Below the pieces are notes generated by a model. The model did no database searches. It saw only the letters and a list, made by a program, of their open reading frames with translations, and was not told where the DNA came from. Of a stretch of DNA of 42,632 nucleotides, positions 10,663 to 40,889 are shown one piece after another (position 1 is the first letter of the stretch; each line of letters opens with the position of its first letter). The DNA is from Stagnimonas sp. (GTDB lineage Bacteria > Pseudomonadota > Gammaproteobacteria > Nevskiales > Nevskiaceae). The translations under genes and the position numbers were made by a program. Where the stretch lies: assembly GCA_030652575.1 (NCBI GenBank), contig JAUSQI010000089.1, positions 1 to 42,632 on the forward strand, written 5' to 3'.

Positions 10663-11790
10663 ATGAACGTCACTTTCGGTCAAGCCACTACGCCAGAGCA
10701 GCTCGCTGCCTGCATGAAACTGCGCTACAGCGTCTACACCGAGGAGATGAACCTCTATCAAAGCAACGAGGCCCAAGCAGCCCAGGCGCTGACCGATGCC
10801 GACGATGCCTGGGCGCGCATCTTCTATGCGGCAGTGGATGGCGAAATCGTTGCCACCTCGCGCGGCAACCTGAGCTGCGATGGTGTCTACCCGCAGAACT
10901 GGAAGGACATCTGGGCCTTCGACCGTTTCGATCCGCACTGCGCATCCGGCAGCTATTGCGTCAGCTCGCGGACCACCATCGCCAAGGCCCATCGTGGTGG
11001 GCCGCTGATGGGGCAGTTGTTTGCCTACAAGGTGGCGGAGTGCATCAAGGCCGGCATGCGCATCGTGTTTCTCGATTGCGTGCCGCACCTCGTGGGCTAC
11101 TACCAACGGCTGGGCGCAAGGGTCTATACCGAGTCCATCGAGGACGCCGATGTGGGCATCCTGGTGCCGATGTGCATCGTCTTCGAAGACCAGCCGCATC
11201 TGGCGCGGGTGCGTTCGGCGTTCTTGCCCATCAGCCAGCAGCTGCTGCCGGAATCCACCAGCACGCCCGCCTGGGTGCACGAGGTTTTCCAAACCGGGCC
11301 GTATGCCGAGGCGGCGTTGCAGCAACGCGCGGAGAAGGGTTTGTTCGAGCTGCTGACGGACAACCGCCTGCCGCTGTTCGCGGGTTTCACGCCCGAAGAA
11401 GTGCTGAAGCTCACCGATAGCGCCACCTTGATCGACAACGAGGCCGGCCAGCTGATGATCCGCGCCGAGACGGTCTACCGCAGCGTGTTCGTGGTGCTGC
11501 AAGGCGCGGTGGATGTGCGGGCCGGCGGCCGCCACGTGGCGCAGTTGCACGCGGGCGAAGTGCTGGGCGAGATGGCGTATCTGTTGGGCGGCATGCGCAA
11601 TGCGACCGTGCATGCCGGGCCGGAGGGCGCGAGCATCCTCAACCTGCAGGAGCCGGTGCTGCGCAAGGTGTTCGAGGCGGAGCCGGCGCTGTCGGCGCGC
11701 TTCCACACCAACCTCGCGCGCATCCTGGCGCTGCGTTGCGTCAGCATGGGCCAGCAGCTGGCGGCACCCGCGCTGGCGCGCGCCGCATGA
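10663..11790 (+). CDS. GNAT N-acyltransferase (FeeM/LuxI-like fold) fused to a cyclic nucleotide-binding domain
   Basis: 375 aa. Residues 1-180 show an N-acyltransferase of the GNAT superfamily. It has a LuxI/FeeM-like opening (MKLRYSVYTEEM, then DADDAW and AVDGEIVATSRGNL), an acyl-CoA loop (KAHRGGPLMGQL, about 108-119) and the GNAT finish HLVGYYQRLGARVY (142-155). Residues 235-350 form a cyclic nucleotide-binding domain with phosphate cassette GEMAYLLGG at 302-310 and the following Arg312 in RNAT, so ligand binding is likely. The layout predicts acyl transfer to an amine substrate, gated by cAMP or cGMP. The stop overlaps the next start by 4 nt. The substrate is unknown. A protein-lysine acetyltransferase (as in mycobacterial cNMP-GNAT proteins, which have the opposite domain order) is the main alternative. 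Confidence 0.85.
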   Translation: MNVTFGQATTPEQLAACMKLRYSVYTEEMNLYQSNEAQAAQALTDADDAWARIFYAAVDGEIVATSRGNLSCDGVYPQNWKDIWAFDRFDPHCASGSYCVSSRTTIAKAHRGGPLMGQLFAYKVAECIKAGMRIVFLDCVPHLVGYYQRLGARVYTESIEDADVGILVPMCIVFEDQPHLARVRSAFLPISQQLLPESTSTPAWVHEVFQTGPYAEAALQQRAEKGLFELLTDNRLPLFAGFTPEEVLKLTDSATLIDNEAGQLMIRAETVYRSVFVVLQGAVDVRAGGRHVAQLHAGEVLGEMAYLLGGMRNATVHAGPEGASILNLQEPVLRKVFEAEPALSARFHTNLARILALRCVSMGQQLAAPALARAA

Positions 11791-12689
11791 GCGCCTTCAA
11801 CCCCGGCGACATGCTCAGCTATTCGGCGGGCAGCACGCAGACCGGGCCGGACGGCTTTCGCAAGATCAACCGCGCCGGCCTGCCGCTGCTCGGCCTGCTG
11901 CGGCAACTCTTCCCCGCCGTTTATGCACCGTTCGGCACGCGGCTGCCGCTGGTGCTCAATGCGTATCCGGCCAGCGTCGGCTTCCCCACCGACGGCGTTC
12001 TGGTGGACTGCTACCTGAGCTTTCGCACCGCCAGCCGCGCGCTGCAGCTGGCGGCACGCGAGGGCTTGCCGGTGCTGATTCTCGGGCAGTCGCTGTTCAT
12101 CGCGGAACTGCTGCGCCGCCATCAGTCGCAGGGTTTTGCCTGGCCGGATGCGCTCATCGCGCTCGTCGGCGGCTACCACACGCCGCTGAGCCTGGAACGT
12201 GCGATGCAGGCCACCGTGCAGTCCGCCGGCGTGTCGCTCGGCTTCGTGCACGGCTATGGCGCGGCGGAAGTCGAAGCCGGCATGTTGCTGGCCAGCGAGC
12301 GCAATGCCCAGGGCCAGCTGCGCTACCGCGCACGCGGGGCGGACATCCACATCAGCACGCCGGGCGGGCGACTGCACCTGGCCCTGCAGAACGCTGACGG
12401 CACGCTGCGTAGCGCGCCGTTCGACAGCGGTGACAGCGCCCGCGCCGACAGCGATGGCTGGATCATCGAGAACGCCGGGTCGCGGCTCTCGCCGGCCGTG
12501 CTGAATGCGCTGGAAAGCTGGACTGCACACGACTGGTCTCGCCGAACCGGCTACCTGCGCAGCGTGGACGGGACATTGCACATGCAGCTGCGTGAAGGCG
12601 CGCTGTCCGATGGCACCCATGAGCTGGGCTTTTACGCCTACGCCGAGCGCTTCGGCATGAGCTGGCTGGAAAAACCGAAGTGGGGCTGA
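11787..12689 (+). CDS. Truncated adenylate-forming (ANL superfamily-like) protein
   Basis: 300 aa, overlapping the acyltransferase gene by 4 nt (ATGA). The order of motifs follows acyl/aryl-CoA ligases. A P-loop-like segment YSAGSTQTGPDGFRK (residues 12-26) resembles YTSGTTGxPK. GYGAAE (156-161) resembles GYGxTE. FDSGD (212-216) resembles Yx(T/S)GD. GSRLSP (231-236) resembles the hinge GxRLSP. The usual ~150 residues before the P-loop and the C-terminal lid with the catalytic A10 lysine are absent or replaced by about 60 residues of other sequence. It may adenylate or bind an acyl chain for its partner, or have lost catalysis. The family assignment rests on motif order only. Confidence 0.65.
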   Translation: MSAFNPGDMLSYSAGSTQTGPDGFRKINRAGLPLLGLLRQLFPAVYAPFGTRLPLVLNAYPASVGFPTDGVLVDCYLSFRTASRALQLAAREGLPVLILGQSLFIAELLRRHQSQGFAWPDALIALVGGYHTPLSLERAMQATVQSAGVSLGFVHGYGAAEVEAGMLLASERNAQGQLRYRARGADIHISTPGGRLHLALQNADGTLRSAPFDSGDSARADSDGWIIENAGSRLSPAVLNALESWTAHDWSRRTGYLRSVDGTLHMQLREGALSDGTHELGFYAYAERFGMSWLEKPKWG

Positions 12690-37809: not shown

Positions 37810-39261
37810 ATGCCCGTTTTGTCTCTGACTCGTTTGCTGTCCGCAGCCCTGTTGTTCGTCACCACCACCCTCGCCCACGCGGACTTCCCCGCGCTCGGTG
37901 CGCTCGAAGCCAGCGGCGCGCGCGTCACCGCCGTGGTGGTCGATCTCGAAACCGGCAAGCCGCTGGAGCGCCGCAACGCCGACCTGCGCCTGGCACCGGC
38001 CTCGGTCACCAAGCTGGTCACCGCCGCTGCCGCCCTCGAAACCTGGCCCGCCGACAAGGTATTTCTCACCCGCGTCTCGGCCACCAGCGGCATCGGCGCC
38101 AACGGTGTGCTCGATGGCGATCTCATCCTGCACACCGAAGGCGATTCCACACTCGACCATTCCGCGCTCTGGTCGCTGGCCGCACAGATCCGCGCCGTCG
38201 GCGTGCGTCGTGTGACCGGCGAGATCAAGGTGAGCACCGCGCCGTTCGGCCCGCTCGGCTGCGAAACCAAAGACCGCTGCGACGCGCTGGAGAAAAGCAG
38301 CACCGCCTACAACGCGCCGCTCGCCGCGATTGGTGCGGACTACGGCAACTGGTGCATCGACATCAAGCCGGTCACGGCCGGCAGCCCCGCCACCATCACC
38401 GGCTGCGGCGGCATGGCGCTGCCGATCCCCATCGAGGGCACGGTCAACACCGTGGCCGGCAACGGCCGCATGACCTACTGGGCCGACCGCTTCACCGTCG
38501 CCGGTCAGGGTGACGTGCTGCGCGTCGGTGGCAACCTGCCGCAGGGCTCGCCGCAGAGTCTGTATCGGGCCATGTCCAACCCACCGCTGGGCTTGGGGCT
38601 GCTGCTGCGCGAAACCCTGAAGGTGGTGGGTGTGGAAGTGATCGGCAACATCCGCGTGATTGCCACACCCGCGCCCGGCAGCAGCATCGAGATCGCCCGC
38701 GTCGATGGTCTGCTGCTGAAAGAGCAGCTCGGCCGCATGCTGCGCTTCAGCAACAACTACATCGCCGATCTGCTCACGCTCAACATCGGTGCGGCCGCCA
38801 ACGGCAAGGCCGGGCCGCTCTCCGATGGCGCGCGCGCCTTGAGCAGCTACATGCAGCGCGTCGCCCCGCAGGTGCTGCCTGCGCCCTTGTTCAGCGGCAG
38901 TGGACTCACACCGGAGAATCGCCTCTCCGCCGGCGAACTGACCGCCATGCTGGCGTCGGTCTACCGCGACCCGGTGCGCTTCCCCGCGCTCTACGGCGGC
39001 ATGGTGGTGCCGCGGCAGGCGCCGTTCGCCTTTCTGCGCCAGGGCAACAAGGACTGGATGGAGCGCGTGGCACTCAAGACCGGCACCATGAACGACCCGG
39101 TTTCGGTGTGCGGCGTGGCCGGCTATCTGCGCAAGAAAGACGGCGGCTGGATGAGCTTCGCCATCCTCGTCAACGGCGGCACCGGCTTCAAGCACGTGCC
39201 GCTCTACAAGAGCATGGAAGCGATCCGCAAGGACATCGAGTCGATCCTGGAGCGGAACTAG
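37810..39261 (+). CDS. dacB: D-alanyl-D-alanine carboxypeptidase/endopeptidase (PBP4, S13)
   Basis: 483 aa with signal peptide (LLFVTTTLAHA). The active-site Ser65 and Lys68 are in PASVTKLV (SxxK). SNN is in RFSNNYIADLL, and KTG is in ALKTGTMNDPV. The long insert between SxxK and SNN, typical of PBP4, contains paired cysteines (LGCETKDRC, NWCIDIK, TGCGG). It trims pentapeptides and cuts 4-3 cross-links in the periplasm. The stop overlaps the convergent cyclase gene by 4 bp. It follows the cyclophilin gene by 52 bp on the same strand. Confidence 0.94.
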   Translation: MPVLSLTRLLSAALLFVTTTLAHADFPALGALEASGARVTAVVVDLETGKPLERRNADLRLAPASVTKLVTAAAALETWPADKVFLTRVSATSGIGANGVLDGDLILHTEGDSTLDHSALWSLAAQIRAVGVRRVTGEIKVSTAPFGPLGCETKDRCDALEKSSTAYNAPLAAIGADYGNWCIDIKPVTAGSPATITGCGGMALPIPIEGTVNTVAGNGRMTYWADRFTVAGQGDVLRVGGNLPQGSPQSLYRAMSNPPLGLGLLLRETLKVVGVEVIGNIRVIATPAPGSSIEIARVDGLLLKEQLGRMLRFSNNYIADLLTLNIGAAANGKAGPLSDGARALSSYMQRVAPQVLPAPLFSGSGLTPENRLSAGELTAMLASVYRDPVRFPALYGGMVVPRQAPFAFLRQGNKDWMERVALKTGTMNDPVSVCGVAGYLRKKDGGWMSFAILVNGGTGFKHVPLYKSMEAIRKDIESILERN

Positions 39262-40538
39262 GCGCGCAGGGCGTAGATCTCCACTGCGTCCTCGATGCCT
39301 TTCAGGCTTTCGTCCGGCCGCTGTGCGAAGCGTGTTGCATCCTCCGCAGACAGTGCCGCCTGCGTGCTGCGATCGATCAGCAGCTCGCCATCGACAGCAC
39401 GCTGGCACAGCCGTGAAGCGAGATTGATGACCGGCCCCACCGCCACGTATTCGAGCCGTCCCGCAGCTTGAATCGCACCCACGGTCGCTTCGCCGGTCGC
39501 CACGCCAATACCTAACCCCAGGCCATGCAGGGCGAGCAGCGGCGGCAACCGGTGCCGCAGCAGGGTGGCCAGGCGAACGGCGCGCTCGGCATGGTCCTTC
39601 TGCGCCACCGGCGCGCCCAGCAGCAGCAATACGCCATCGCCCGCGTGGTCCTTGACGGTCGCGCCCAGCTCTGCCGCCGCAGTGCCCACCACGCCGTAGT
39701 ACTGCTCCAAGAGATCGACCACCACCGGCGTCTCGCGCGCCTGCGTGAAGGCCGTGAAGCCACGCAGATCGCAGAACACCGCACTCAGCACCCGGCGCTC
39801 GCGTTGCAGCACCTGATCCACGCCTTTCAGCCGCACCAGCCGCGCCACGTCCGGCGCCAGGAACTGGCTCATCAACTGGCCGCGTCGGCCCAGCACCATG
39901 AGGTAGCGCACGGCCCCGAACAGGAAGATCAAGAGGCCCAGCGTGATGAACAGCGGCACCGAAGCCGGTTGCACCAGGAGTGCGGCGAACAGGAACGGTG
40001 CTGCGACCAGCAAGCCCCGCAGGCGGATCGCCTCCGCCGGGTCGCTGCGGCCGAACACCAGCAGCAGGATGGCGATGGCCGAGAGCAGGATGCCCGTGCC
40101 CAGCACGGGCGCAAACACCGCCCACTCGATGGCGCGTACGCGGAAGAATCCCGCCGAGCCTGTGGTGGCGTCGGCCGGGTCGAGCGCGAGGTAACCGAGC
40201 GCCAGACCCGCATAGACCAGCACCAGGATCTGCGCCGCCAGAATCAGGCCGCGCGCAGCACGCCGCAGGCCACGACGCACGGTGTCGGCAATATGCTTGG
40301 CCCACTGCATGCCGGCGAGGATCGACAGCGCCTCCAGCCCGCGGGCAACGGCGGTGATGGCGACCGAAGGCGTGGCGATTTCAATCGGCGCGAGCAGCAG
40401 GCGCACGCCCAGCACCGCAAAGCACAGCGCCAGCGCACGGCTGCCGCGACCGTGCCGGTCGGTAAAGAAAAAGATCGCGCCGAGGCCGGTGGTGAAGAGA
40501 CCAACGACGTGGAAGGCAGCGGGGACGGGGATTTCCAT
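39258..40538 (-). CDS. Membrane-bound class III nucleotide cyclase
   Basis: 426 aa. About seven hydrophobic segments fill residues 5-225. A class III adenylate/guanylate cyclase domain follows (about 245-420). Metal-binding Asp257 (VFCDLRGFTAFT) and Asp301 (DHAGDG) are present, as are transition-state Asn372 and Arg376 (GPVINLASRL). The two base-recognising positions, usually Lys and Asp/Thr, read Asp297 and Val365, so cAMP versus cGMP output cannot be assigned. ATG 40538 sits at the start of the first span; the open frame upstream is antisense to the next gene. It could feed cyclic nucleotide-binding proteins such as the acyltransferase at 10663-11790 (inference). Confidence 0.88.
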   Translation of the reverse strand: MEIPVPAAFHVVGLFTTGLGAIFFFTDRHGRGSRALALCFAVLGVRLLLAPIEIATPSVAITAVARGLEALSILAGMQWAKHIADTVRRGLRRAARGLILAAQILVLVYAGLALGYLALDPADATTGSAGFFRVRAIEWAVFAPVLGTGILLSAIAILLLVFGRSDPAEAIRLRGLLVAAPFLFAALLVQPASVPLFITLGLLIFLFGAVRYLMVLGRRGQLMSQFLAPDVARLVRLKGVDQVLQRERRVLSAVFCDLRGFTAFTQARETPVVVDLLEQYYGVVGTAAAELGATVKDHAGDGVLLLLGAPVAQKDHAERAVRLATLLRHRLPPLLALHGLGLGIGVATGEATVGAIQAAGRLEYVAVGPVINLASRLCQRAVDGELLIDRSTQAALSAEDATRFAQRPDESLKGIEDAVEIYALRA

Positions 40539-40619
40539 AGGGTCGGCAGCATAGTCGCTGCCATCGGGCGTGGCGCTGTGGCACGCTTGGCCGCCGCAAC
40601 TTTTCCCGCAGGAAACCGC

Positions 40620-40889
40620 ATGCTGCGTCCACCCGAAGCCGACGCCGACCATACCGAAACCGTGCTGGACTGGCTGGCCGACTACACCATCGACGGCGAG
40701 GACGATGCCCTCACCGAAGCCTGTGCGATGGCCGCCAACCAGCCGGTGAAAATCGACGTGCTGATGGCCGGGCTCGAAGCGCTGGCCTCGCAGCGCGCCG
40801 ACGCCAGCCGACTGCGCCAGGCCCGCGTCGCGCTGCGTGCCGCCCTGCAACTGCCGCTGATGCCCGGCCCGGTGTGCCGTGCCGAATGA
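40620..40889 (+). CDS. Small acidic hypothetical protein coupled to hslR
   Basis: 89 aa, no signal or membrane segment, acidic N-terminal half (EADADHTETVLDWLADYTIDGEDDALTEA) shown here only to indicate charge, then a helical second half (IDVLMAGLEALASQRADASRLRQ). ATG 40620 is the only sensible start. Its stop overlaps the hslR start (ATGA), so the two are probably translationally coupled. Divergent from the cyclase gene with an 81-bp gap. No family recognised. Confidence 0.75.
   Translation: MLRPPEADADHTETVLDWLADYTIDGEDDALTEACAMAANQPVKIDVLMAGLEALASQRADASRLRQARVALRAALQLPLMPGPVCRAE

Follow-up and report, generated by a model that had tools for sequence, protein, structure and literature searches.

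We describe here two overlapping genes, A and B, found in a 42,632-nucleotide stretch of DNA from Stagnimonas sp. (GenBank assembly GCA_030652575.1, contig JAUSQI010000089.1), the whole of which is called the window hereafter. A encodes a FeeM/LuxI-type GNAT acyltransferase domain followed by a cyclic nucleoside monophosphate (cNMP)-binding domain, and B a compact protein with a predicted ANL fold. The reading that we tentatively favour is that together they form a small-molecule module controlled by a second messenger, in which B would adenylate a carboxylate, most likely that of the product of A. The compact ANL protein and its pairing with A are what is new here. The features that matter for this reading are the following:

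10663–11790, plus strand: gene A, comprising a GNAT domain (FeeM/LuxI-type), a linker and a cNMP-binding domain, from the open reading frame (ORF), Pfam, the AlphaFold model and conservation
10663–11247, plus strand: GNAT domain of A, residues about 1–195, from the match to FeeM and the residue table
11368–11760, plus strand: cNMP-binding domain of A, residues about 236–366, from PF00027, PDB sequence matches and VIA-align
11566–11607, plus strand: putative phosphate-binding-cassette-like stretch of A (GE...R-N-A-T), residues 302–315, from conserved residues
11787–11790, plus strand: ATGA overlap, which holds both the stop codon of A and the start codon of B
11787–12689, plus strand: gene B, a compact ANL-fold protein, from the ORF, the model, fold matches and conservation
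11817–11864, plus strand: P-loop-like stretch of B, residues 11–26 (SYSAGSTQTGPDGFRK), invariant in all three B proteins
12252–12284, plus strand: A5-like stretch of B, residues 156–166 (GYGAAEVEAGM), from a weak hhalign pairing with IYGLSEV of PaaK
12423–12434, plus strand: A7-like stretch of B, residues 213–216 (D-S/T-G-D)

Both ORFs, of 375 amino acids for A and 300 for B, and their 4-nucleotide overlap are present as a sequence-only reading of this DNA had claimed. The same reading called for a search for co-occurring pairs, and A and B turned out to be conserved neighbours: the pair recurs with an identical overlap in genomes G030 and G034 (loci L005 and L006), which belong to another genus of the same family. 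A is 51% and 49% identical to its counterparts in L005 and L006, and B, the more conserved of the two, 59% and 58%. The ratios of nonsynonymous to synonymous substitution rates between G030 and G034 (NG86 method) are 0.32 for A and 0.27 for B, both below 1. As the same overlap recurs in these genomes and the ratios are below 1 for both genes, the pair is more than a chance association. When ORFs of 100 amino acids or more in the 17 kb around each of these pairs were compared with the window, no flanking gene was found in common except for one short match (69 amino acids, 38%), to a place far away. B is present in three of the 61 genomes of the set of relatives, its own included, and in one of the 369 genomes of the class sample, namely its own. 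In the order, six of 85 genomes gave matches, three of which were rejected as chance. A-type GNATs were found in five of the 61 relatives. No relatives of B were found in viral contigs or in plasmids; with A, the plasmid search matched 11 Sphingobium records, all within the cNMP half.

The AlphaFold model of A is good (predicted local distance difference test score (pLDDT) 80.4, predicted template modelling score (pTM) 0.73). Its residues 1–184 match FeeM (2g0b) with Z 16.1 over 170 residues of the 184-residue chain, with a root-mean-square deviation (rmsd) of 2.8 and 8% identity; no other GNAT row with Z above 15 extends over as many residues. Small GNATs are tied with FeeM (Z 14.7–16.4), and the N-acyl homoserine lactone (AHL) synthases TofI, LasI and RpaI reach Z 14.8, 14.1 and 13.9, respectively. 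The FeeM family model PF21926 passes narrowly on A (28.3 bits against a Pfam cut-off of 27, residues 16–164); the G034 protein is also above the cut-off, with 31.4 bits, and the G030 protein reaches only 21.2 bits. A profile built from the GNAT parts of seven A-type proteins matches ElaA (4.3e-6), SACOL1063 (1.1e-5) and the AHL synthase BjaI (2.7e-5). Among the 13 aligned rows, R21 is kept in all, and D45, D48 and R67 in 12, the G088 row being the exception. At the position expected for the catalytic Glu, A and its G030 and G034 relatives have a Val (Val100 in A), and Glu is found in the G122 row only; the position was deduced from the E-x-x-R pattern of AHL synthases as three residues before R103, in an alignment that excludes FeeM itself, and when BjaI is aligned, its Glu lies within an insertion. 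The translation of A has no acidic residue at positions 91–110. The catalytic Glu, the equivalent of FeeM Glu95, is reported to be needed in Nas354 (PMC4897644). Because the catalytic Glu of the family is absent, we do not place A among the N-acyl amino acid synthases; A lacks one defining feature of these enzymes, yet it may work in the same mode. The proposal of a LuxI/FeeM-like acyltransferase is thus borne out for the fold and not for the catalytic residue.

PF00027 matches residues 260–338 of A (31.8 bits, cut-off 27.5, E 1.4e-7), PDB sequence matches cover residues 235–349, and in VIA-align the C-terminal part of the model matches the cyclic-nucleotide-binding structures 3gyd and 3mdp with Z 17.1 and 16.5. 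Both Pfam and the predicted fold thus agree with the domain content and order first proposed for A, GNAT and then cNMP. The residues G302, E303 and R312, which lie in the presumed phosphate-binding cassette, are identical in L005, L006, L083 and L084; the position of the phosphate-binding Arg is occupied by Ser in L085, and both the Glu and the Arg are lost in L021. As for the ligand, the domain resembles cAMP-, cGMP- and cUMP-binding structures, and as the latter include the cUMP-binding PycTIR, the candidates are not narrowed to one nucleotide. Five matches to class III cyclases were found in the genome of origin, making these enzymes a possible source of the ligand. One of them is an adenylate/guanylate cyclase gene within the window, at 39258–40850 on the minus strand (PF00211, 3.9e-12). 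A role of A in anti-phage defence was considered and set aside, the PADLOC matches being restricted to the cNMP part and mainly to Pycsar TIR effectors.

Family models gave no hint for B: searches of Pfam (at E up to 10), NCBIfam (at E up to 1), PADLOC and PHROGs came back empty, and all three B proteins lack Pfam matches, including to AMP-binding PF00501 and AMP-binding_C_2 PF14535, at E up to 10. A PDB sequence search with B gave no meaningful match. It is the structure prediction, called for at the outset, that revealed an ANL fold by both Foldseek and VIA-align. The best AlphaFold model, obtained with three B sequences, has a mean pLDDT of 69 and a pTM of 0.73. Used in Foldseek, it gave 38 matches at E <= 0.001 (best 1.2e-5), all of which, by their titles or by what we know of the proteins, we take to be ANL adenylating enzymes. 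In VIA-align, PaaK1 (2y27) scores highest, with Z 12.7 over 228 residues and an rmsd of 3.7, and NatL2 (6tm4) and ClxA (9s45) reach Z 11.6 and 11.1; these chains share the fold of B but have 400–430 residues to its 300. Residues 19–275 of the B model align with residues 99–431 of PaaK1, while other VIA-align rows span model residues 1–300 against nearly whole ANL chains, over low-confidence ends. From the range of the PaaK1 alignment and the P-loop-like stretch at residues 11–26, B seems to begin at about the P-loop of PaaK. Unlike the PaaK family, B is not matched by the Pfam AMP-binding models, and it apparently lacks what precedes the P-loop; the model suggests that its C-terminal part is also reduced, its exact extent being uncertain.

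Residues 10–26, Glu161 and Asp216 are invariant across the three B proteins. The first of these stretches resembles the A3 motif of ANL enzymes, and we presume that Glu161 and Asp216 correspond to the A5 Glu and A7 Asp, with the register taken from weak hhalign alignments. Against a profile of 13 PaaK-type proteins from relatives, hhalign pairs GYGAAEVE with IYGLSEV at E 0.017; residues 213–216 align with DLGD of the G088 protein discussed below, in an alignment that is not significant. The C-terminal part is short, with pLDDT below 50 for residues 283–300, and includes K296, invariant in the three proteins. We consider the ANL fold of B well supported and catalysis by B likely.

The architecture of A is found beyond this pair. 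Of the 369 genomes of the class sample, 16 gave matches to the GNAT profile, at 18 places in all, and a cNMP domain was sought at 17 of these places (all but the one in G260); FeeM-cNMP fusions were found in eight genomes (G000, the genome of origin, G088, G122, G152 with two loci, G206, G295, G371 and G402). In the phylum sample, the profile matched 17 of 398 genomes. Of the places tested there, 11 besides the window (those in G602, G568, G749, G799 and G820 left out), G460 has a fusion and G615 the reverse domain order, cNMP first. Counting G030 and G034, 13 FeeM-cNMP loci were collected. The PF21926 cut-off is passed at 10 of them (not G030, G371 and G088) and that of PF00027 at 11 (not G088, nor G371, in which that part was not scanned with Pfam). 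When ORFs of 150 amino acids or more were considered, seven of the 13 loci had an overlapping partner on the same strand, which is B in three of them (window, G030 and G034). In G088, a gene whose whole length is related to A (8.9e-9) overlaps by 26 or 41 nucleotides, depending on the start codon, with an AMP-binding-like gene for 331 amino acids whose PF00501 match (7.6e-5) is below the cut-off. Common ancestry of the G088 and window pairs is settled neither by the GNAT tree, which does not resolve that part and shows G088 on a long branch, nor by the comparison of B with the G088 protein, which is non-significant. At the other three loci, the overlap is of 4 nucleotides and the partners are an iron-containing redox enzyme (Haem_oxygenas_2; G152, L084 7457–9321), a leucine-carboxyl-methyltransferase-type protein (LCM, 8.1e-31; G460, L111 4696–6536) and, with the cNMP-FeeM gene of G615, a fatty acid hydroxylase (L110 5405–7146, minus strand). 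It is possible that each of the overlapping partners at the seven loci is a tailoring enzyme.

According to the reading that we favour, binding of a cyclic nucleotide to the C-terminal domain of A would switch on the FeeM/LuxI-fold acyltransferase, which would use an acyl-thioester to acylate a small amine, yielding an N-acylated or otherwise acylated product. B, a PaaK-like ANL protein that seems to begin near the P-loop and to have a reduced C-terminal part, and that would be co-translated with A, would then activate the carboxylate of this product by adenylation for cyclisation, amidation or ester formation. In the tyrazolone pathway, a ThiF-type adenylating enzyme works at the step proposed here for B. 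We favour this order of events for three reasons: the overlapping partners found elsewhere are tailoring-type enzymes, published enzymes resembling A can be supplied with acyl-thioesters by the cell, and thioester formation seems beyond so reduced a protein as B. The scheme starts from what is observed, namely the domain make-up, the folds of the models, the gene overlap, the recurrence of the pair and the class III cyclase genes of the same genome, and adds to it ligand binding, activity, substrates and the order of the steps.

Several results weigh against this reading. A six-frame whole-genome search with PF21926 yielded 0 matches at E <= 0.001 in the genome of origin, G030 and G034; as it recovered neither A nor its relatives, the FeeM match of A is marginal by sequence. 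The small acetyltransferase ElaA is a slightly better sequence match to the A-type GNATs than the AHL synthases are (4.3e-6 and 2.7e-5), and A lacks the Glu on which catalysis by N-acyl amino acid synthases depends. At the sequence level, no family model links B to ANL enzymes, its hhalign alignment with PaaK is weak, and only one of its five models is fair, the other four having mean pLDDT values of 50–58. Six of the 13 FeeM-cNMP loci have no overlapping partner. The G088 gene is below both Pfam cut-offs (24.8 against 27.5 bits for cNMP, E 0.031 for FeeM) and has Ser in place of the phosphate-binding Arg. Lastly, the evidence at hand does not separate an action of B after A from one before A. 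The weak PF21926 genome result and the weak G088 domains leave our estimate unchanged, since it rests on the window pair. A bolder version is doubtful: in a new kind of cyclic-nucleotide-gated pathway, a minimal ANL enzyme starting at the P-loop would form one complex with a Glu-less FeeM/LuxI-fold transferase to make an undescribed acylated metabolite, and FeeM-cNMP fusions in general would serve as a control unit that recurs across genomes, coupled in translation to a different tailoring enzyme each time.

The reverse order, in which B activates a carboxylic acid, fatty or aryl for example, and A passes the acyl group on to an amine, so that an N-acyl signal or lipid would be made under cyclic-nucleotide control, is in our view unlikely. 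The ANL fold of B, whose top VIA-align matches are PaaK and putative acyl-CoA ligases, the FeeM/LuxI fold of A and the gene overlap would all fit such a scheme, and AMP-forming acyl ligases occur in some of the exosortase-linked clusters for N-acyl amino acid synthases. Against it, B looks short for a thioester-forming ligase, PaaK1 being aligned from its residue 99 and up to residue 275 of B, within the uncertainty on the extent of the latter, and A is without the catalytic Glu. Moreover, such enzymes are reported to be able to draw acyl-ACP (acyl carrier protein) from the host (PMC4897644) or, as for TyzA, use acyl-CoA. The logic of N-acyl small-molecule synthesis put forward by the sequence-only reading thus retains its two folds, ANL and FeeM, and small-amine acylation is not established given the absence of the Glu. 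Two of the outcomes that it had named as refuting, a second protein without an ANL fold and neighbours that are not conserved, did not materialise, the fold being judged on the predicted model. Its sequence of activation followed by transfer is one among several possible orders, as tyrazolone-type pathways adenylate the product of the acyltransferase.

The same two ingredients, a cNMP-GNAT protein and an ANL protein, are found in mycobacteria, where Pat (MtPat Rv0998, a type III GNAT) acts on the ANL enzyme Acs and, upon activation, inactivates it by acetylation of a C-terminal lysine (PMC8556138). A would by analogy be a cyclic-nucleotide-gated protein lysine acyltransferase, with B as its substrate or client. 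The invariant K296 near the C-terminus of B, within a WLxKPxWG motif in all three proteins, is consistent with this idea, as are the matches of the GNAT profile of A to ordinary acetyltransferases. We nevertheless consider it improbable. The domain order is reversed, the cNMP domain coming first in Pat and the GNAT in A; the NCBIfam Pat model NF058543 matches A in its cNMP part only (residues 237–318, 28.1 bits for a cut-off of 460); and some other FeeM-cNMP genes overlap with genes for non-ANL, tailoring-type enzymes. To our knowledge, Pat has not been reported to overlap its target gene. Finally, that B is a non-catalytic scaffold, a sensor of acyl-adenylates or nucleotides or a regulatory subunit of A would account for its 300 residues against 400 or more in the matched ANL chains, an A8 region that looks remodelled on inspection of the sequence and the lack of a family model match, but is hardly probable given the invariance in all three proteins of the P-loop-like stretch, within the long run of residues 10–26, of Glu161 and of Asp216, and given that B is better conserved than A.

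How does the gated acyltransferase module that we favour relate to known systems? NasP (Clardy and Brady 2007, J Bacteriol 189:6487) is reportedly a cAMP-activated N-acyl amino acid synthase. Cyclic-nucleotide control of such enzymes is therefore not new. NasP is described as carrying its cyclic-nucleotide-binding domain at the C-terminus and is not known to have an ANL partner; A lacks the Glu reported for the family. FeeM and the AHL synthases TofI, LasI, RpaI and BjaI share with A the GNAT/LuxI fold over 170 residues; A differs from them by its low identity (8% to FeeM), the lack of the catalytic Glu and the added cNMP domain. Nas354 and Nas343 have, like A, a FeeM-like domain first and a second-messenger domain last, but the latter is a PilZ domain of the cyclic di-GMP type rather than a cNMP domain, Glu103 is present and needed for the phenotypes, and the authors presume that there is no biosynthetic operon (PMC4897644). 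In the clusters of TyzA, TyzB and TyzC and of NasY, a FeeM-like acyltransferase occurs with a carboxylate-adenylating enzyme, as proposed here; that enzyme is ThiF-like and not ANL as B is, and the available parts of both papers describe no cNMP domain (PMC10404671, PMC12479983). A literature search covering few subscription journals found no report of a compact ANL partner, of the missing Glu or of the range of overlapping partners. The statement of the sequence-only reading that no described system has exactly this pair thus holds within the scope of that search, whereas the cyclic-nucleotide control has a precedent.

In bacteria, cyclic nucleotides are best known for binding to transcription factors, and NasP is the published case that we found of a small-molecule enzyme switched directly by one. 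If FeeM-cNMP fusions do form a recurrent module with exchangeable overlapping partners, such pathways could be found by genome search, and a cyclic nucleotide would directly time the making of many different small molecules. B itself would bear on how much of an ANL enzyme adenylation needs.

Other FeeM-type loci deserve mention. In G806, a Haem_oxygenas_2 gene lies beside a FeeM gene without cNMP domain, in convergent orientation (L108 4693–6083); a FeeM-type gene and a Haem_oxygenas_2 gene possibly constitute an undescribed oxidase-acyltransferase pair. Longer FeeM-cNMP proteins, of 410–417 amino acids, are encoded in G295, G206 and G402 (L140 3881–5113, L141 3339–4583 and L142 3866–5119). 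The G295 protein matches CRP through its added C-terminal part and may join an acyltransferase to a transcription factor. Its gene is about 290 nucleotides from divergent ThiF and nitroreductase genes, with polysaccharide-export genes nearby; both ThiF and nitroreductase occur as partners in the tyz and stieleriacine pathways (PMC12479983, PMC10404671), and we count this neighbourhood in favour of the reading preferred above. The frame of the G371 FeeM-cNMP gene (L082 8943–10076, minus strand) is broken by one TGA in the assembly.

A number of weaker matches were discarded. Those to B in G057, G051 and G041 (six places, E 1.7e-4 to 0.0065) were attributed to chance, the ORFs at these places being presumably of the aminotransferase type (on the opposite strand), a solute-binding protein and manganese catalases. 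The sole locus that the genome-contig scan retrieved when queried with B, in Frigidibacter (L004 2214–2420), has 34% identity over residues 24–91 of B, in frame with a gene that we read as a lactate/malate dehydrogenase; it was taken as chance and not as a relative. A match to A in G051 (1.5e-4) falls in what we read as a GNAT-amidohydrolase-like ORF, and a second A-type GNAT, in the relative G033, lacks both a recognised cNMP domain and a neighbouring B.

As for the surroundings of the pair, the GC content at third codon positions of A and B is inside the range of their seven window neighbours, so composition gives no hint of a foreign origin; the overall GC content of B (0.684) is the highest of the nine genes compared. 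A divergent PhoD-type phosphatase gene lies upstream of the pair and a convergent transglutaminase-type gene downstream. In G030, a gene for a LuxR-family regulator (L005 5825–6937, minus strand; PF00196, 1.9e-13), which has no counterpart adjacent to the window pair, is divergent from A and B.

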